This document shows, piece after piece, positions 30,644 through 54,570 of a DNA stretch of 64,000 nucleotides (the first letter of the stretch is position 1; every line of letters begins with the position of its first letter). The position numbers and the translations under genes are program-made. The notes under the pieces were generated by a model. The model was not told the DNA's origin. It saw only the letters and a list, made by a program, of their open reading frames with translations, and searched no databases. Source of the stretch: Candidatus Sulfidibacterium hydrothermale (GTDB taxonomy: Bacteria > Bacteroidota > Bacteroidia > Bacteroidales > F082); assembly GCF_020149915.1 (NCBI RefSeq), contig NZ_CP083760.1, positions 2,356,001 through 2,420,000 of the forward strand. Reading direction: 5' to 3'.

Positions 30644-31942
30644 CTATTTTTTGTGCTCCATCAAAAAATCAATCAGTTCCTGCGGATCATTTTTTACCGG
30701 AATACTCCTTTTTTTGTGATTCAACCGGACAGACAAGCGTTCTGGAAGCGGTACTTTTACCCCAATCTCTTTTTCCACTACCGTATAAAACTTGGCCGGG
30801 TGGGCTGTTTCAAGGAAAATACCACAATCATCCGGATGCTGTTTCATGTATTCCGAAAGTCCGAGCCAGGCTACAGCACCATGCGGATCCAACATGTAAC
30901 TGGTTTTCCGGTAAACAGTAGCTATAGCCTGCCGGGTTTCATCATCGGTAAAATGAAACGGAACGATAGCCTGACGGGCATCTTCGTAAGAATGGCCATA
31001 TAACTCCTGAATACGCACAAAATTGCTGGGATTTCCCACATCCATGGCATTGGAAATAGTCGGTACCGAAGCCCTTGTTTTCAAAACCCCGGTCTCAAGA
31101 TATTGCTGAAAAACATTATTTCTGTTTCCGGCAGCTATAAATTGTTTTACCGGCAAACCGGCACGTTTCGCCAGCAACCCGGCATTCAGGTTACCCAAAT
31201 TACCCGTCGGAACAGAAATCACCACCGGTTTATTCTGACGGGCTACTTTTCCATAGGCATAAAAATAATAGATGGCCTGCGGCAACAAACGGGCTATATT
31301 GATGGAATTGGCCGACGACAGCCGCATTTTCCGGTTCAGTTCATCGTGCGCAAAAGCCGTCTTCACCATCCGTTGGCAATCGTCAAAAGTACCTTCTACT
31401 TCAAGTGCTGTGATATTTTGTCCCAGGGTAGTAAATTGCTTTTCCTGCAACCGGCTTACCTTGTTTTTGGGATACAAAACCACCACATCCACATGAGGAA
31501 TACCAAGAAATCCTTGTGCTACCGCACTACCGGTATCGCCGGAAGTAGCCACAAGGATGGTGGTTTTATCCTGTCCGGAAAAAAGGGCCATAAAACGGGC
31601 TAAAGTTCGTGCCCCCACATCTTTAAAAGCCAAAGTAGGGCCATGAAAAAGCTCCAGTGCATATTGATTTTCTGCGACCTCTGCCAACGGCGTATCAAAA
31701 GAAAAAACCGCTTCCATACTCTTTTTCAACGCCTCGTCAGAAAGATCACCATCCACATAAGGCTTTAGAAAATGATAACCTATCTCCGGCAAAGAAAGCG
31801 CTGGTAATTTTTCGAAAAAGCTTTTTTCCATCACCGGAATCTTTTCCGGAAAATATAATCCTTTATCCGGTGCCAAACCGGTTAAAACAGCCGTTTTAAA
31901 AGAAACTTCAGGTGATTGACGATGGGTACTATAATATTTCAT
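30644..31942 (-). CDS. thrC: threonine synthase
   Basis: A 432-residue PLP enzyme that converts O-phosphohomoserine to threonine. The PLP lysine is Lys107 in GPTLAFKDVGAR, and the glycine-rich phosphate loop ATSGDTGSAVA and VSVPTGNLGN are present. It is the last gene of thrABC on the minus strand, 30 bases after thrB, and its end faces msrB across 6 bases. Confidence 0.97.
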   Translation of the reverse strand: MKYYSTHRQSPEVSFKTAVLTGLAPDKGLYFPEKIPVMEKSFFEKLPALSLPEIGYHFLKPYVDGDLSDEALKKSMEAVFSFDTPLAEVAENQYALELFHGPTLAFKDVGARTLARFMALFSGQDKTTILVATSGDTGSAVAQGFLGIPHVDVVVLYPKNKVSRLQEKQFTTLGQNITALEVEGTFDDCQRMVKTAFAHDELNRKMRLSSANSINIARLLPQAIYYFYAYGKVARQNKPVVISVPTGNLGNLNAGLLAKRAGLPVKQFIAAGNRNNVFQQYLETGVLKTRASVPTISNAMDVGNPSNFVRIQELYGHSYEDARQAIVPFHFTDDETRQAIATVYRKTSYMLDPHGAVAWLGLSEYMKQHPDDCGIFLETAHPAKFYTVVEKEIGVKVPLPERLSVRLNHKKRSIPVKNDPQELIDFLMEHKK

Positions 31943-31972: not shown

Positions 31973-32899
31973 TTACGAATGAATGACCCGGCAACCTGAT
32001 GAAGCAATTCCGGAAGTAAATGTCTCAAAAGGAACATCAATATTCTGGTAAATTTCATACATGACACGGGTAACTTTTTCAGCGGTTTCCTTATCCGCTG
32101 ACAGGGCAAAAACAGAGGGGCCGGAACCGGAAATACTACATCCGAGTGCTCCGGCATTGAGCGCCGCCTGTTTCAGCTCATCAAACTTGGGGATAAGCAT
32201 CGAACGAACCGGTTCTACAATTCCGTCGTGCATCGATCGTGCAATCAATTCAAAATCTCCGGTAAACAACCCGGCCGTCAATGCTGCCACATTTCCCCAC
32301 TGGGTAACCGCATCTTTTAACAAGATAGATTTCTTCAGAATATTCCGTGCATTTTGGGTTTTTACTTCGATCAATGGATGAATCAAACTAACCGACAAGC
32401 CGTCGGGAACCGGCAGCGGGATCACATCCAGCGGATGGGTACTACGCACAAGAGCAAAACCACCAAAAAGATTGGGAGCTACATTATCGGCATGCGCCAC
32501 ACCGGAGGCCAACGCTTCGCCCAACATAGCAAACCCGATCAGTTCGTTCTGGTCAAAAGGTTCGCCCAGCAATTGGTTTACTCCAAAGGCTGCTCCACCA
32601 GCGCTGGCTCCGCTGGAGCCCATCCCGCTGCCGGGAAGAATTCCTTTTTCCATCTCGATGGAAATACCAAAATCAGGATCCGCCTTTTTCAGCATGGCCA
32701 AAGCCACTACCCCGGCCACATTTTTTTCCGGCTCTACCGGAAGTTCCCGGAAATTTTTCATTCGCAAACGCACTCCTTTTTCTTTTGTTTTGCGAAAGAT
32801 CATACGGTCGCCGGCATTTTCAACGGCAAACCCCATTACATCAAATGCACAGGAAACATTGGCTACCGTAGCAGGAGAAAAAATTGTTATTGCATTCAT
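31973..32899 (-). CDS. thrB: homoserine kinase
   Basis: A 308-residue GHMP kinase that phosphorylates L-homoserine. The ATP motif is PGSGMGSSGASAGGAAF near residues 88-104; the C-terminal motif GCSISGSGPSVFAL is present. It starts 3 bases after the thrA stop, so the genes are cotranscribed. Confidence 0.97.
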   Translation of the reverse strand: MNAITIFSPATVANVSCAFDVMGFAVENAGDRMIFRKTKEKGVRLRMKNFRELPVEPEKNVAGVVALAMLKKADPDFGISIEMEKGILPGSGMGSSGASAGGAAFGVNQLLGEPFDQNELIGFAMLGEALASGVAHADNVAPNLFGGFALVRSTHPLDVIPLPVPDGLSVSLIHPLIEVKTQNARNILKKSILLKDAVTQWGNVAALTAGLFTGDFELIARSMHDGIVEPVRSMLIPKFDELKQAALNAGALGCSISGSGPSVFALSADKETAEKVTRVMYEIYQNIDVPFETFTSGIASSGCRVIHS

Positions 32900-32902
32900 T
32901 TT

Positions 32903-35353
32903 TTATTGATTTACTATGGAAATAATATCGGCGAAAACACCGGAAGCAGTCACGGCAGCACCGGCACCGGCACCTTTTATTACCAGCGGCTGCTCGTCAT
33001 AACGCTGCGAAAAGATAAGGACGATATTATCTTTTCCGTCAAGCTGATAATACGGCTGGTCCGGATCAACCATTTGAAGTCCTACTTGTGCTTTACCCCG
33101 GTTAAACTCCGCCACATAACGCAGCTTTTTTTGATTTTTTTCGGCCTTTTGGCGTTGCTTTTCCAAGCTATTGTTTTGTTTTTCAAGCTCTTCCATAAAC
33201 TTCTCCACAGAATCGGCTTTCATTAAATGCTCCGGCAAAAACGGAACCACGGAAACCTCATCCGGTTCTAACGGATAACCGCTTTCGCGTGCAAGGATCA
33301 GAATTTTCCGCATCACATCCTGTCCGCTCAAATCAATACGCGGATCGGGCTCGGTATAACCTTCTTCTCTTGCCAGTTTCACAATTTCCGAAAAAGGAGT
33401 TTCTCCGGTAAAATGATTGAAAATAAAATTCAGGCTACCGGACAAAACCGCTTGAATCCGGAAAATCTTGTCTCCACTTTTACGCATATCCCTAATGGTT
33501 TTCAGAACCGGCAAACCGGCTCCCACATTGGTTTCGTAAAGGAACTTCTTTTTCATGGACAACGCAGTATCGTTGAGCTTTTTATACGTTGAGTAGGAAC
33601 CGGATGCCGCTATTTTGTTGGAAGCCACAACACTGATACTCGCTTTCAATATCTTTTCGTACAACAGGGCGATAGAATGACTTGCGGTATTATCCACAAA
33701 AATGGAATTTCGCAAGTTCATGGCTTTCATTTTTTGTACAAAAAGTTCTTTGTTCATAGGAGTTCCCTGCGCCGCCAGTTGTTTTTTCCAGTTTCCTAAT
33801 TCAATTCCCGAATCATCAAAAGCCATCAGCCGGCTGTTGGCCACCGCCATTACTTTTATTTCCAATGCATATTCTTTTTTCAGACAGGAATACTGGCGCT
33901 GAATTTGCTCTAACAAAGCACTTCCCACATTTCCAACCCCAACCATAAACAGGTGAACTTTTTTAAAAGGAGACAAAAAGAAACGTTCGTGCAAAACATT
34001 CAAAGTTTTAACAACATCGTTTTCCTTTACCACAAAAGAGACATTTTTCTCTGTAGACCCCTGGGCTATGGCCCGGATATTGATTCCGTTTTTCCCTAAG
34101 GCATCAAACGCTTTTCCGCTTAATCCCAAAGAGGATTTCATTTTATCGCCCACCAAAGCAACAATCGACAAGCCGTTTTCTATAAGCAGACGATCTATTA
34201 ATCCCAATTTCCGTTCGGCAGCAAACTCATTTTCGATGGCTTTTGTGGCTTTCTCCGCATCTTCCTGACTGACGGCCAGGGTAATAGAATGCTCTGACGA
34301 TGCCTGTGTAATAAAAATAACGTTTACATTTTGTTGTGACAAACAAGAAAAAAGCCGTGCAGCAGTTCCGGTAACACCGACCATTCCTCCACCCGTAATA
34401 GTGAGTAACACAATGCCTTCAATATGAGAAAGTCCTTTTACCGGATGTCCGTTTTCCGTTCCATCCGCATCAATCAATGTTCCCGGAACTTCCGGATGAA
34501 ATGTATTTTTAATCCATACCGGGATATTTTTTTTCATTACCGGCTGGATACTGGGGGGGAAAATAACCTTTGCCCCAAAATGCGACATTTCCATCAATTC
34601 GCTGTAAGACAATTTCGATAACGGCATGGCACTTTCCACCAACGCCGGGTCGGCTGTCATCACACCGTCCACATCTGTCCATATTTCAAGGGCACGGCTA
34701 CCGGTCATCGCAGCCAGTAAAGCGGCGGTATAATCAGAGCCTCCGCGTCCCAACGTGCTGGGAATCCCCGACCGGGTTGATGCAATAAAACCGGGAACAT
34801 AAACCGGAAAGGAAGCATTTTTCAGTTGCCGGTCAATTCTCTTTTGGGTTTCAGAAAAATCAACCTGTATGCGTTCCCAGTTTTCTTCTGTGATAATCAA
34901 TTCCCGGGCATCCTGATAATTAATTGGAATACCCTGTAAACGAAAAGCTTCTGAAATAATCTTTCCGGACAATCTTTCGCCAAAAGAGAGCAACCGGTCA
35001 TGGACACGCCGGTTCATTTCCTGCAACAAGAAAATCCCAAAACAAATGTCTTCGAGTTCATTCAAGATCATTTTTACGGAAGCCTTTATCTCTCCCTGAT
35101 TTTTAAACGGGAAAAGACCTTCTATCATCGTCATGTGCCGGGTTTCTATCGTGGCAAGGAAAGATTTATATTCTTCCGAACCGCTCCGGGCCTTCTCTCC
35201 ACTTTTGTCAAGGAGATTGGTAATTCCGCCAAATGCCGATGCCACAACAATTAACGAAGGTTCTTCTTTGATTTTATCACGAACAATTTCTATGACTCTT
35301 TTCACATTTTCGGCCGTAGCTACCGAGCTTCCGCCAAATTTTAAAACCAGCAT
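32903..35353 (-). CDS. thrA: bifunctional aspartokinase / homoserine dehydrogenase
   Basis: An 816-residue fusion. The N-terminal aspartokinase begins LVLKFGGSSVATAENV and contains GRGGSDYTAALLA; two ACT-type regulatory segments lie near residues 310-460 (IVLLTITGGGMVG and LSIVALVGDKM). The C-terminal homoserine dehydrogenase begins near 470 with FMVGVGNVGSALLEQI. It controls entry of aspartate into threonine and, with other enzymes, methionine and isoleucine pathways. Feedback by threonine is expected. A leader ORF with a threonine run precedes it. Confidence 0.97.
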   Translation of the reverse strand: MLVLKFGGSSVATAENVKRVIEIVRDKIKEEPSLIVVASAFGGITNLLDKSGEKARSGSEEYKSFLATIETRHMTMIEGLFPFKNQGEIKASVKMILNELEDICFGIFLLQEMNRRVHDRLLSFGERLSGKIISEAFRLQGIPINYQDARELIITEENWERIQVDFSETQKRIDRQLKNASFPVYVPGFIASTRSGIPSTLGRGGSDYTAALLAAMTGSRALEIWTDVDGVMTADPALVESAMPLSKLSYSELMEMSHFGAKVIFPPSIQPVMKKNIPVWIKNTFHPEVPGTLIDADGTENGHPVKGLSHIEGIVLLTITGGGMVGVTGTAARLFSCLSQQNVNVIFITQASSEHSITLAVSQEDAEKATKAIENEFAAERKLGLIDRLLIENGLSIVALVGDKMKSSLGLSGKAFDALGKNGINIRAIAQGSTEKNVSFVVKENDVVKTLNVLHERFFLSPFKKVHLFMVGVGNVGSALLEQIQRQYSCLKKEYALEIKVMAVANSRLMAFDDSGIELGNWKKQLAAQGTPMNKELFVQKMKAMNLRNSIFVDNTASHSIALLYEKILKASISVVASNKIAASGSYSTYKKLNDTALSMKKKFLYETNVGAGLPVLKTIRDMRKSGDKIFRIQAVLSGSLNFIFNHFTGETPFSEIVKLAREEGYTEPDPRIDLSGQDVMRKILILARESGYPLEPDEVSVVPFLPEHLMKADSVEKFMEELEKQNNSLEKQRQKAEKNQKKLRYVAEFNRGKAQVGLQMVDPDQPYYQLDGKDNIVLIFSQRYDEQPLVIKGAGAGAAVTASGVFADIISIVNQ

Positions 35354-35444
35354 TTTCTTTCTTTTTCATTTAAACCTTAAAACTTTTCGGGGAAAGACAA
35401 GCATAAAAGATGTCCATTCAAAACCTTTTGCTTTGTAAACAGGG

Positions 35445-35492
35445 AAAAATCCCCCCGGGAATATTATGAAAACATTAACCCCCTAAGGGGTT
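35445..35492 (-). promoter_or_regulatory. putative attenuator structures in the thr leader
   Basis: Two short G/C elements follow the Thr codons on the minus strand. AACCCC-TTAG-GGGGTT (35477-35492) overlaps the last codons and stop of the leader peptide. TCCC-GGG-GGGA followed by five U (35445-35460) is a weak terminator-like hairpin. The C-run of the first could also pair with the G-run of the second, giving exclusive structures. The fold was judged by eye. Confidence 0.4.
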
Positions 35493-35587
35493 GTGGTGGT
35501 AGTACCGGTAACAACAGACACCAAACGCCCGTGCCCTGAAAAACAGGAGCCTGAAGCAGGAATATGGATGACGGACAATGGTAACAT
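35483..35587 (-). CDS. threonine-rich leader peptide of the thr operon
   Basis: A 34-residue frame upstream of thrA, missed by length cut-offs. It ends VVTGTTTTTP, that is six threonines in the last eight residues, with two isoleucines and several valines before. The stop codon lies inside a G/C hairpin, 130 bases before thrA. This is the design of a translation-coupled attenuator, as in the enterobacterial ThrL, though the sequence is unrelated. A possible promoter (35611-35642) gives a leader starting about 18 bases before this ATG. If ribosomes stall at the Thr codons when threonyl-tRNA is low, a downstream terminator would be avoided. The peptide likely has no other role. Confidence 0.65.
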   Translation of the reverse strand: MLPLSVIHIPASGSCFSGHGRLVSVVTGTTTTTP

Positions 35588-35610
35588 TTTTTATCTGTTA
35601 TTTACGGGGG

Positions 35611-35642
35611 TAAATGTAGAAAAAATTCTTTTGAACCTACAA
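35611..35642 (-). promoter_or_regulatory. possible thr operon promoter
   Basis: Minus-strand TTG (35640-35642), 21-base spacer and TACATTTA (35611-35618), which matches TAnnTTTG at seven of eight positions. It is placed correctly for the leader peptide ATG at 35587. Confidence 0.4.
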
Positions 35643-35665
35643 GGAATGAAAAAAAATTCTTTCAG

Positions 35666-36103
35666 CTATTTGAATTTTGGTTCAAATGAGTCGTAGCTTA
35701 ACGGCAATTTGGTAAACTGAACAAAATAATTTCCGATATCCGTATAATTATTGTTATTGGCAATAAAAGCATATGACAGCCCGCCTTTCAGTGCCAGCGT
35801 GTCTGCACTTTCAATAATAAATGTAGTTCCTTCCTGCGGGTTCACGGCTTTAAAGATCACTTTGCCGGCGCCCAGCTTTTCAATGAGCCACACCGCACTG
35901 TCTTTAAAGGTCACATTCGCTATTTTATCGCCATAGGTACTTAAATTATACGCTACTTGGAACGTATCCGGCGGATCAATAATCGGATCAAGATAACTAT
36001 ACAAAGGAATTTCAGGACCTGTGGACGCTTTATTACAATCGGCACCCGAGAAAACAAAGAGGATGGCCACACCAAGTAATAAAAGGCTGACGTAGTTCTT
36101 CAT
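35666..36103 (-). CDS. exported protein of unknown function
   Basis: A 145-residue protein with a signal peptide (residues 1-20, hydrophobic LLLLGVAILFVFSG). A cysteine follows in SGADCN, but ADC is not a standard lipobox, so lipidation is uncertain. The rest is beta-rich (VIFKAVNPQEGTTFIIES, LSYAFIANNNNY) and may be a small Ig-like domain. I do not recognise the family. The ATG at 36103 is chosen as the signal peptide starts there; the frame extends 22 codons upstream into the secA end region. It has its own -7 box. Confidence 0.65.
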   Translation of the reverse strand: MKNYVSLLLLGVAILFVFSGADCNKASTGPEIPLYSYLDPIIDPPDTFQVAYNLSTYGDKIANVTFKDSAVWLIEKLGAGKVIFKAVNPQEGTTFIIESADTLALKGGLSYAFIANNNNYTDIGNYFVQFTKLPLSYDSFEPKFK

Positions 36104-48936: not shown

Positions 48937-48940
48937 AAAT

Positions 48941-49049
<109 letters not shown>

Positions 49050-49215
49050 AAGATCTTGATGTTTGATGGTGAATATTATCAGATGTCTTATCTCCTTTCT
49101 TCTGACTTCCGTCTTCTCTCTTCCAACTTCTGTCTCCCATCTCCCATCGCCAATATCTTTGACATCATTCGAAAAAACATACAACTTAGCTCTAAAACCG
49201 GTAAAAGGTGAATCG
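49050..49215 (-). other. 5S-23S spacer with pyrimidine-rich repeats
   Basis: It contains CTTC-rich runs on the plus strand (49081-49145), such as ACTTCCGTCTTC and TTCCAACTTC, that recur in the 23S-tRNA spacer. No gene is seen. Confidence 0.6.
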
Positions 49216-49536
49216 CAGTTAAAAAGTCTTCGGGTAATTAGTACTGCTCGGCTTTGACATTACTGCCTTTACACCTGCAGCCTATCTACGTCATCGTCTC
49301 TAACGACCCTTATAGGAAGCCTCATCTTGAGGTGAGTTTCGCGCTTAGATGCTTTCAGCGCTTATCTCGTCCAAACTTAGCTACCCTGCGATGCAGCTGG
49401 CGCCACAGCAGGTCCACCAGAGGTTTGTCCAACCCGGTCCTCTCGTACTAGGGTCAGGTCCTCTCAAGCTTCCAACGCCCACAACAGATAGGGACCGAAC
49501 TGTCTCGCGACGTTCTGAACCCAGCTCGCGTGCCAT

Positions 49537-49572
<36 letters not shown>

Positions 49573-49641
49573 CCAGCCCCAGGATATGACGAGCCGACAT
49601 CGAGGTGCCAAACCACTCCGTCGATGTGAGCTCTTGGGAGT

Positions 49642-49675
<34 letters not shown>

Positions 49676-49877
49676 TTTGAGCGATGGCCCTTCCATGCGG
49701 AACCACCGGATCACTATGCCCTACTTTCGTACCTGCTCGACTTGTTGGTCTCACAGTCAAGCACCCTTATGCCATTGCACTCTACGTACGGTTACCAACC
49801 GTACTGAGGGTACCTTTGGAAGCCTCCGTTACTCTTTTGGAGGCGACCACCCCAGTCAAACTACCCACCAAACACTG

Positions 49878-49893
49878 TCTCCGCCTTCCGGCG
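49878..49893 (-). repeat. 23S helix tip with TCCGCC clamp, third copy
   Basis: TCCGCC-TTCC-GGCGGA. See the finding on three identical clamps. Confidence 0.6.
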
Positions 49894-50119
49894 GATTAGG
49901 CGCCAAATAAGCAAAGGGTGGTATTTCAAGGGCGACTCCACGAAACCTGGCGGCTCCGCTTCACAGTCTCCCACCTATCCTACACATTACTTATTCAGCG
50001 TCAATGTTAAGCTGTAGTGAAGGTTCACGGGGTCTTTCCGTCCCGTTGCGGGTAAACGGCATCTTCACCGTTACTACAATTTCACCGAGCTCATGGCTGA
50101 GACAGTGCCCAGATCGTTG

Positions 50120-50207
<88 letters not shown>

Positions 50208-51545
50208 AATTCAGAGCTTCTCAGACAAGACGAATCCCGTCTGATGACCCCTCCTCTTAACCTTCCGGCACCGGGCAGGTGTCAGGCCTTATACCTCATC
50301 TTTCAATTTTGCAAAGCCATGTGTTTTTGATAAACAGTCGCCTGGGCCATTTCTCTGCGGCCTGCCTTTCGACAGGCGCCCCTTCTCCCGAAGTTACGGG
50401 GCCATTTTGCCTAGTTCCTTAGCCATGAATCACTCGAGCACCTTTGGATCCTCTCCTCGACTACCTGTGTCGGTTTGCGGTACGGGCATCTTATATCTGA
50501 CGCTTAGAGGTTTTTCTTGGAAGTAGGATTAGGGCCACTATCCACGCATCCGAAGATTTGTGGTACTATCCACTTTCAGCAAGCTCTGCGGATTTGCCTA
50601 CAGAGCCTATACCTACGGTGTTTAACGTACTATTCCGTCAGTACGCGGGCCTTTCACTCCTCCGTCTCCCCATCGCAATATAAGATGGTATCGGAATGTT
50701 GACCGATTGTCCATCGACTTCCCCTTTCGGGTTCGCCTTAGGTCCCGACTAACCCTGATCCGATTAGCGTTGATCAGGAAACCTTAGTCTTCCGGTGTGC
50801 GGGTTTCTCACCCGCATTATCGTTACTTATGCCTACATTTGCTTTTCCAGACACTCCAACAGGCCTTACAACCCATCTTCAACGTAACTGGAATGCTCCC
50901 CTACCAATAAATAATTACTTACTTATTCCATAGCTTCGGTAATGTGCTTGATGCCCGATTATCATCCATGCCAAACCGCTCGACTAGTGAGCTGTTACGC
51001 ACTCTTTAAATGAATGGCTGCTTCCAAGCCAACATCCTAGCTGTCTCTGCAGTCTGACCTCGTTATGTCAACTTAGCACATATTTGGGGACCTTAGCTGA
51101 TGGTCTGGGTTCTTTCCCTCTCGGACACGGACCTTAGCACCCATGCCCTCACTGCTGGTAATCATGTCATAGCATTCGGAGTTTGTCAGGGTTTGGTAGG
51201 CGGTGAAGCCCCCTAGCCCAATCAGTAGCTCTACCTCTATGACACTAGTACCAACGCTGCTCCTAAAAGCATTTCGGGGAGTACGAGCTATCTCTCAGTT
51301 TGATTGGCCTTTCACCCCTACCCACAGCTCATCCAAAGACTTTTCAACGTCTACTGGTTCGGTCCTCCACCCCGTGTTACCGGGGCTTCAACCTGGCCAT
51401 GGGTAGATCACCAAGTTTCGCGTCTACCCCCACTGACTCTTTCGCCCTGTTCAGACTCGCTTTCGCTCCGGCTGCTCCGCTTTAACGGATTAACCTCGCC
51501 AGTGAGGAGTAACTCGTAGGCTCATTATGCAAAAGGCACGCCGTC

Positions 51546-51561
51546 ATCCGCCAGTTGGCGG
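51546..51561 (-). repeat. 23S helix tip with TCCGCC clamp, second copy
   Basis: TCCGCC-AGTT-GGCGGA, the same six-base stem as the copies near 49878 and 51969. Confidence 0.6.
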
Positions 51562-51570
51562 ACTCCGACC

Positions 51571-51604
<34 letters not shown>

Positions 51605-51968
51605 CCTCCTGCTCGGAGTACTTTTCACCTTTCCCTCACGGTACTTGTCCACTATCGGTCTCTCAGGAGTATTTAGCCTTGCCGGATGGTGCCGGCCGAT
51701 TCAGACAGGATTTCACCGGTCCCGCCCTACTCAGGATACCACTACGCCGATAAATCAATTTCGCTTACGGGACTATCACCCCCTACGGTCCATCTTTCCA
51801 GATGTGTTCTGCTATCAATTTATCGTCCGATATCGTGGTCCTACTACCCCAATATTGCCGTAACAATACTGGTTTGGGCTCCTCCGCGTTCGCTCGCCAC
51901 TACTTACGGAATCACTATTGTTTTCTTCTCCTCCGGCTACTTAGATGTTTCAGTTCACCGGGTTCGCC

Positions 51969-51984
51969 TCCGCCAATTGGCGGA
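51969..51984 (-). repeat. 23S helix tip with TCCGCC clamp, first copy
   Basis: TCCGCC-AATT-GGCGGA near the 5' end of the 23S gene, the same stem as the two copies downstream. Confidence 0.6.
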
Positions 51985-52135
51985 TGATACCGCTTCACGG
52001 TACCGGGTTGCCCCATTCGGAAATCTCCGGATCAAAGGTTATTTGCACCTCCCCGAAGCTTATCGCAGCTTGTCACGTCCTTCATCGCCTCTGAGAGCCT
52101 AGGCATCCACCGTACGCTCTTAGTAACTTTTTTAA

Positions 52136-52404
52136 CTTTCCTCTTTTACTCGATTCTCTAGTAAAATTGTATGCTTTTTCTCATGATGTCAATGAACTCT
52201 TCCGGAGCTGACCTTTACATGTCTATTGCTTGCGTCGGCTGACTCTGCATGTAAACGGCCTTTCTGCTCGCTTCCATTACCAATCATCCTTCATATCTGG
52301 TAGTATATACCTTCAACCTTCCGGATGCTTAGTAACTCAATATCTTTATGAACTTTTCTCGTCTTCAAACTTCCAACTTCCGTCTTCCGCTTTCCAACTT
52401 CTTG
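52136..52404 (-). other. 23S-tRNA-Ala spacer
   Basis: A processing region without a gene. Its tRNA-side end (52360-52402) holds CTTCC/AACTTC repeats. No boxes for a separate promoter are visible. Confidence 0.6.
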
Positions 52405-52478
52405 TGGAGAATAAGGGAGTCGAACCCTTGACCTCCAGAATGCAAATCTGGCGCTCTAGCCAACTGAGCTAATCCCCC
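52405..52478 (-). tRNA. tRNA-Ala (TGC)
   Basis: A 74-base cloverleaf between 16S and 23S. The acceptor stem is GGGGGAT/ATTCTCC, the anticodon stem CCAGA/TCTGG with the loop TTTGCAT, and the T-arm GGGTTCGACTCCC. CCA is not encoded. Confidence 0.97.
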
Positions 52479-52616
52479 TCAGAACGTTTCGGATGTTCGA
52501 TGTTTGATGTTTGATTTTAGATGCTTGATGTTCTTTTGGATGGTTGATGTTTAAATTCCTACCATCTAACATCCCTCATCTGACATCTTATATCATCCAT
52601 CCCCACATCCGCTCTG

Positions 52617-52690
52617 TAGTCCCGCGCAGACTTGAACTGCGGACCCCTACATTATCAGTGTAGTGCTCTAACCAACTGAGCTACGGGACT
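52617..52690 (-). tRNA. tRNA-Ile (GAT)
   Basis: A 74-base cloverleaf between 16S and tRNA-Ala. The acceptor stem is AGTCCCG/CGGGACT, and the anticodon stem CTACA/TGTAG encloses CTGATAA. The 16S-Ile-Ala-23S order is the common bacterial one. Confidence 0.97.
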
Positions 52691-53048
52691 GTTTGGATTG
52701 ATTAATGTCGAATGATAAATGCTGAAGGCTTCTCAAATGAAGTAATCTTACCACCATTTGCCATTCATCATTAATCCTTCTTCATTCCCAAAACCGCCCC
52801 TTAACAAAGTTCTCTGTTAGTGAGCAGTAAACCTTTGCTCTAAAGGGTTGACAGAGAAAGAAAATACTTCAAATACCTGAAGTGTGAAGTACTTGAAATT
52901 TGAAGTGCTTTAGGCACTTCTAACTTCAAACTTCCTTCTTCCATCTCTCTGTGGATTCTCCTCATTATGTTTAACAAAAATAAAGCACGCCAATGAAAAG
53001 GTACAACTTTCGGTCCTTCTCCCTGTGTAACAGTCTAAGAATCTCTCC
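52691..53048 (-). other. 16S-tRNA-Ile spacer
   Basis: It contains many degenerate GAAGT/ACTTC blocks (52860-52945) able to pair among themselves and, near 52972-52980, a nonamer TCATTATGT also found in the 16S leader. Probable RNase III processing and antitermination region; no gene. Confidence 0.5.

Positions 53049-54570
<1,522 letters not shown>

Follow-up and report, generated by a model that had tools for sequence, protein, structure and literature searches.

The thr locus and its leader

The window, that is, the whole stretch of 64,000 nucleotides of Candidatus Sulfidibacterium hydrothermale analysed here, carries the threonine operon thrABC on its minus strand, preceded by a short open reading frame (ORF) with a threonine-rich end and by two hairpins with a conserved unpaired sequence between them. 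The features are the following:

35611..35642, minus strand: promoter-like sequence, with TTG (35642-35640), a 21-nt spacer and a Bacteroidota-type -7-like box TACATTTA (35618-35611), identified from the sequence and from conservation in the genus
35587-35483, minus strand: leader ORF of 34 codons, MLPLSVIHIPASGSCFSGHGRLVSVVTGTTTTTP followed by the stop, its Thr-rich end being kept in relatives
35489..35509, minus strand: regulatory codons ACC GGT ACT ACC ACC ACA ACC (T G T T T T T), read from the sequence
35477..35492, minus strand: hairpin P1, AACCCC-UUAG-GGGGUU, with the Thr codon sequence as its 5' arm and the stop codon in its loop
35457..35468, minus strand: conserved single-stranded element, here CATAATATTCCC, with the phylum consensus CAUAUyAyCC, from alignments and model hits
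35440..35457, minus strand: second hairpin P2, CGGGGGG-AUUU-UUCCCUG, from folding, holding the U5 stretch (35449-35445)
32903..35353, minus strand: thrA, bifunctional aspartate kinase / homoserine dehydrogenase I (NF006959, 1012.8 bits against a cut-off of 726)
31973..32899, minus strand: thrB, homoserine kinase (NF002288, 374 bits; TIGR00191, 209 bits)
30644..31942, minus strand: thrC, threonine synthase (TIGR00260, 283.8 bits)

The same window also contains a complete rRNA operon (16S-tRNA-tRNA-23S-5S) at 48939-54570 on the minus strand.

An earlier, sequence-only reading of this DNA had noticed a 34-codon frame before thrA with six threonines among its last eight residues, which is borne out both by the sequence and by its rarity: the leader ORF alone, among the 1579 ORFs of 8-60 amino acids in the whole window, has at least five Thr in its last eight residues, and the 300-nt upstream region was dinucleotide-shuffled 2000 times without once giving six in eight. 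The leader ORF is genuine and not a product of chance, its regulatory residue being Thr without Ile, and the possibility that its peptide belongs to a known protein family was ruled out, as none matched. The same reading had located the stop codon in a G/C hairpin and a plausible promoter 24 bases before the start. The TAG (35485-35483) does fall within the loop of P1, and 24 bases separate the promoter-like box TACATTTA from the leader ATG, while TAC[AT]TTTA followed by CC stands shortly 5' of the leader start in the upstream regions of 9/9 same-genus relatives. From the leader stop to the thrA start there are 129 nt.

Conservation and coding character of the threonine run

The upstream regions of thrA were taken from 60 relatives, from 395 sampled genomes of the class and from loci in genome contigs. 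The Thr run before thrA, on whose conservation in close relatives the sequence-only reading depended, recurs in most of the same-genus relatives, with leader ends such as ...FTGTTTTTP, ...FTSTTTTTP, ...CTTTTTSTP, ...YTTTTTP and ...TTSITTTP, the weakest leader being that of L013 (...HTTSFMTPLGV). Runs of Thr/Ile are found class-wide, and beyond the genus both residues appear together, for example in ...ATIIITTTR, ...TTTTITITTTR and ...TIISTTTTTTP. A short ORF in which at least five of ten residues close to the C-terminus are Thr occurs in 38 of 132 thrA upstream regions, against 0.04% of shuffles; each of the other amino acids, under the equal tail test, was found in at most eight of the 132.

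Among 107 homologous leaders found by a covariance model, whose reading frame was picked by Thr content, Thr accounts for 52% and Ile for 17% of the last ten codons, at least five of the last ten residues are Thr or Ile in 100 leaders, and the share of ACN codons, 54.7% in the leader frame, falls to 0.5% and 0.4% in the two remaining frames. Since ACN is nearly absent from those two frames, the Thr signal is a coding one. Moreover, variation within codons is greatest at position 3 (entropy 1.71 versus 1.08 and 1.17 in the 107 leaders), with ACA, ACC, ACT and ACG all in use, so that conserved Thr codons with variable third bases, as anticipated for relatives, are what the alignment contains. 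The statistics of the Thr tail and its conservation thus support the proposal that this Bacteroidota thr operon has a threonine leader peptide. The residues at the C-terminus (P, R, L, PLG, PFGV) track the hairpin sequence and, as they are dictated by it, the peptide itself is unlikely to matter. A second conserved stretch, HI(I/T)SS, is often seen early (N-terminal) in the leader ORF of Chitinophagaceae-type leaders.

Conserved RNA structure

In the alignment of thrA upstream regions, P1 is followed after about 10 nt by CAUAUyAyCC, and P1 is a hairpin that overlaps the regulatory codons or the stop. In 105 of 109 leaders, 11-13 nt separate the GGG core of P1 from AUAU, whereas the distance between stop codon and AUAU is bimodal (14-18 nt or 1-11 nt). 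As the first spacing is fixed and the position of the stop is variable, it is the arrangement of Thr codons, P1 and CAUAU relative to one another that is conserved, and not the stop. P1 was found by a search requiring a hairpin, so that its pairing is partly given by construction; the fixed spacing is independent of that, as are the base changes, which include swaps of C-G to G-C in L098 and L105 and outer pairs that are A-U, U-A, C-G or G-U across the leaders. For those leaders that were aligned on their stop codon, P1 had an average paired fraction of 0.70 in register versus 0.32-0.46 when slid; in the fixed-column test the register with 16 nt from stop to AUAU was off by one, so that the test is hardly informative for leaders of that register.

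A second hairpin, GGGC...GCYG, follows in 62 Chitinophagaceae-type leaders. Its inner pair, for which pairing was not maximised, is Watson-Crick in 63% of them versus 29% with partners permuted, a level that 0/20000 permutations reached by a statistic that ignores relatedness, and all four Watson-Crick kinds are represented (TA 17, AT 10, CG 7, GC 4). At the position of P2, leaders of the other class have base-swapped stems (GGGAG/CUUCCC, AGGA/UCCU or GGC/GCC), and folding of relatives gives GGGGA..UCCCC as the counterpart in the focal genus. The covarying stems that had been expected in relatives are thus found in part, namely in the swaps of P1 and the covariation of P2, but the second inner pair of P2, tested for conservation in the Chitinophagaceae-type leaders, was not significant.

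Genome-wide distribution of the element

A covariance model (R1) of P1 and CAUAUyAyCC, built from 24 sequences and carrying no information on thrA, was run on whole genomes. At E <= 0.01, R1 matched 17 of the 395 genomes sampled from the class, 99 of 197 genomes of one family, which is suggested to be, probably, the Chitinophagaceae, and 28 of 199 genomes of another that looks like the Flavobacteriaceae. At E <= 0.001, 38 of 296 genomes of a phylum sample were matched, ten of them in one family outside the focal class; these ten loci of another class have thrA downstream and runs of Thr/Ile. As AUAU is built into R1, its frequency among the matches is not independent evidence; independent evidence comes from the position before thrA and from the Thr/Ile codons 5' of P1.

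An aspartokinase start lies within 400 nt downstream in 102 fetched R1 loci and is absent in 16. The latter include seven sub-threshold matches in the focal genome, a few weak ones, and three loci (L193, L200 and L242) that resemble Thr leaders with no aspartokinase start within the same 400 nt. Furthermore, an independent pattern, CATATYAYC...GGGC...GCYG, returned from 80 genomes either thrA leaders or matches lacking a Thr leader or P1, with one unclassified. A generic element shared with other amino-acid operons was ruled out, since model and pattern place the element only before thrA in the genomes searched. The comparison of genomes thus points to a single thr-specific RNA element common to several families, other orders and another class of the phylum.

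The focal genome also holds dispersed palindromic AACCCC..GGGGTT elements (L165-L170), several of them beside a shared GACGCTGAATTTATTCAG. They look like a genomic repeat family and are the source of the weak own-genome R1 matches.

Other amino acid leaders in the genome and lineage

In the focal genome, a his leader, MRTTRRHHHHLHFHPLR followed by a stop (HHHHLHFHP), lies about 170 nt before the hisG start and has a strong U-tailed terminator, AACCCAUCUGAGUGAAUCGGAUGGGUUUUUUC. A trp leader, MNKMNLNNNWWWLLFVRN (WWW), precedes trpE, with a terminator CGGCCUGUC...GACAGGCCG that ends in nine U. The Bacteroid-trp RNA (RF01692) matches at 850480-850598 (minus strand), before trpE and trpG, with 48.5 bits, just under its cut-off of 49, and its matches in this genome are found solely before trpE. 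These his and trp leaders mean that the lineage does use textbook attenuation, and that the thr leader of the focal genus is of a different design.

Canonical thr leaders are also found in the phylum. In L022, of another genus of the same family, a ThrL-like leader, MILTTGTTFTTTTTTTGNGKG... (...TTGTTFTTTTTTTGNGKG...), stands before thrA with a strong canonical terminator, so that one thr operon seems, from a comparison with the focal genus, to be served by two designs within one family. In a further group of genomes, L118, L121, L123, L130 and L133 have Thr/Ile leaders with strong U-tailed terminators; of these, L118, L121, L123 and L130 reach the enterobacterial Thr_leader family (RF00506) below its cut-off (32-36 bits versus 55), L130 on the strand opposite to that listed. 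Shared descent and convergence are both possible for the canonical Bacteroidota thr leaders and the enterobacterial one. As for the earlier suggestion that the same logic evolved here, the use of leader attenuation in the lineage (his, trp) speaks for it, but the thr element is far wider, extending to other orders and another class.

Terminator tests and alternative explanations

A terminator-like hairpin with five U had been proposed to follow the leader, and the terminator is not supported by the analysis. The hairpin at 35462-35445 is only a weak stem; a terminator scan of the focal region passed P1 alone and did not report it. The U5 stretch lies inside the loop and 3' arm of P2, which is also where the U-rich stretch lies in the folded relatives, in most of which the U5 tail is missing. 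Among 109 leaders, a U-tailed terminator downstream of P1 was found by a simple terminator rule in 6, against 2.8% of shuffles, which is background; P1 itself satisfies this rule in 33 of the 109, by way of a weakly U-rich tail. A conserved terminator downstream of P1, counts of U runs included, was rejected for this type of leader because of that background frequency and, as no U-tailed terminator is conserved, the sequence does not demonstrate premature termination. These results bear on a classical three-state attenuator, in which P1 would be the 1:2 hairpin, GGGGU would pair with AUYCC as the 2:3 antiterminator, and AUUCC-GGGAU-UUUUU would form the 3:4 intrinsic terminator. The 2:3 pairing does appear on folding when the 5' arm is masked (focal sequence, L009 and L010), five U follow a short stem in L001 and L010, and the his and trp leaders of this genome are of the canonical kind. 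However, the duplex between the 3' arm of P1 and CAUAUyAyCC is weaker within a sequence than across sequences (mean -3.0 versus -3.48 kcal/mol, p = 1.0), with no coevolution; L098 and L105, in which C and G are swapped, are unable to pair 2:3; and the U tail is not conserved. The antiterminator pairing, which the sequence-only reading had also entertained, was rejected as a conserved rule on account of the weaker own duplexes, and the three-state attenuator is judged improbable for this leader.

Rho-dependent attenuation, in which the RNA behind the leader would be free when threonine is present, Rho would load and terminate before thrA, and Rho would be blocked by a stalled ribosome or by the structure which that ribosome permits, is unlikely, if less so than the other alternatives. 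It agrees with the fact that an intrinsic terminator was not found, and a possible loading region exists in the stretch from P2 to thrA of the Chitinophagaceae-type leaders, which is G-poor (7% G versus 13% in control upstream regions) and has a C/(C+G) of 0.73 versus 0.60 in controls; but the focal genus is without such a bias (C/(C+G) 0.50), and a loading site needs no fixed CAUAU at a set distance from P1. Another reading is post-transcriptional: the position of the ribosome would expose or hide CAUAUyAyCC and P2, to which an RNA-binding protein or a nuclease would bind, and the translation of thrA or the decay of the mRNA would change. This fits a strongly conserved unpaired sequence beside two hairpins and no terminator. 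It is nevertheless rather improbable, given that in the focal genome about 100 nt separate the element from thrA and that relatives use canonical terminators for this operon. It is very improbable that the ribosome is arrested by the leader peptide, in the manner of TnaC or SecM, with free threonine or another ligand being sensed: many leaders have the short conserved N-terminal HI(I/T)SS-like stretch, but outside Thr/Ile the peptide is poorly conserved, its C-terminal residues track the RNA hairpin and the codons vary at synonymous third positions. A T-box was also considered and, on inspection by eye, set aside for want of T-box features.

Proposed mechanism

The element is almost certainly the threonine leader of the thr operon, regulating thrABC, and it is likely that it acts on transcription through the position of the ribosome. 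The leader is very probably a ribosome-mediated attenuator, and its Thr-rich frame very probably lowers the expression of the thr genes when threonine is plentiful. The order along the sequence is a promoter-like box, a short ORF ending in Thr, P1 with the last Thr codons as its 5' arm, 11-13 nt, CAUAUyAyCC, often P2, and thrA. When charged tRNA-Thr is scarce, the ribosome would stall in the Thr run and cover the 5' arm of P1, which would stay open, and the RNA polymerase would continue into thrABC. With ample threonine, the ribosome would finish and leave (or none would be present), P1 would fold with the polymerase at CAUAU, and the polymerase would be held or released there. If the stall came at the first Thr codon, P1 might be left uncovered.

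Hairpin-stabilised pauses in E. coli have a spacing of 11-12 nt from the hairpin, and because the spacing of 11-13 nt resembles them, P1 plus CAUAU is taken as the likeliest stop or pause signal; that it is the actual signal is a tentative assignment, slightly less probable than its opposite, with Rho-dependent release as what we consider its main rival. CAUAUyAyCC is conserved more widely than a generic pause site needs, and it may bind a factor. As a whole explanation, a threonine leader-peptide attenuator of thrABC with the P1 and CAUAUyAyCC design is reasonably probable. Somewhat short of an even chance is the more specific proposal of a thr-specific Bacteroidota RNA family that has Thr/Ile codons in the 5' arm of P1, 11-13 nt, an unpaired CAUAUyAyCC, often P2 and no intrinsic terminator, and in which the polymerase would be stopped by hairpin-dependent pausing or release at CAUAU or by a dedicated factor reading the motif.

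Comparison with known systems

The closest likeness is to the enterobacterial thr leader (ThrL; RF00506), with which the element shares a Thr-rich leader directly before thrABC (with Ile too in many Bacteroidota relatives) and the position of the ribosome as sensor. It differs in that the focal type is without a conserved U-tailed terminator, in both peptide and RNA, and in a focal leader that has Thr only. RF00506 gave no match at E <= 10 in 35300-35700 (cut-off 55 bits), in agreement with the earlier statement that the sequence is unrelated to ThrL, and Rfam 15 gave no family match at the focal locus.

In the E. coli trp attenuator, the 1:2 pause hairpin has regulatory codons in its 5' arm and the stop in or next to its loop, and forms close behind the polymerase. 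P1 likewise has regulatory codons in its 5' arm and the stop in its loop; in E. coli trp a strong 3:4 terminator follows, whereas none is conserved in the thr element of the focal type. The Bacteroid-trp RNA (RF01692; Weinberg 2010, PMC2864571) is likewise an amino-acid leader of the same phylum, with a copy in the focal genome. It differs by its Trp codons, by a strong U-tailed terminator (in this genome) and by its sequence and structure, and gave no match at the thr leader (cut-off 49 bits).

For amino-acid operons of Flavobacterium psychrophilum, leader-peptide attenuation has been proposed from transcript maps (PMC9723704). These leaders belong to the same phylum and to the same general mechanism, so that the principle of attenuation is not new for the phylum, and the parts of that paper available to us describe no thr leader or CAUAUyAyCC motif. 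No description of a Bacteroidota thr leader or of the motif was found in the literature searched, most subscription papers lying outside it. Furthermore, in a survey of regulatory RNAs from 2013, the amino-acid attenuators of Rfam were so concentrated that a gamma-proteobacterial origin with few transfers was proposed (PMC3766115). The his, trp and thr leaders of one Bacteroidota genome, together with a thr element in several families and another class, mean that attenuation is old and widespread there.

Bacteroidota ribosomes mostly work without Shine-Dalgarno pairing. The question that the element raises for such a phylum is how a stalled ribosome would act on transcription when no intrinsic terminator follows: the thr version is without the terminator that defines the textbook case, while the same genome keeps textbook terminators for his and trp.
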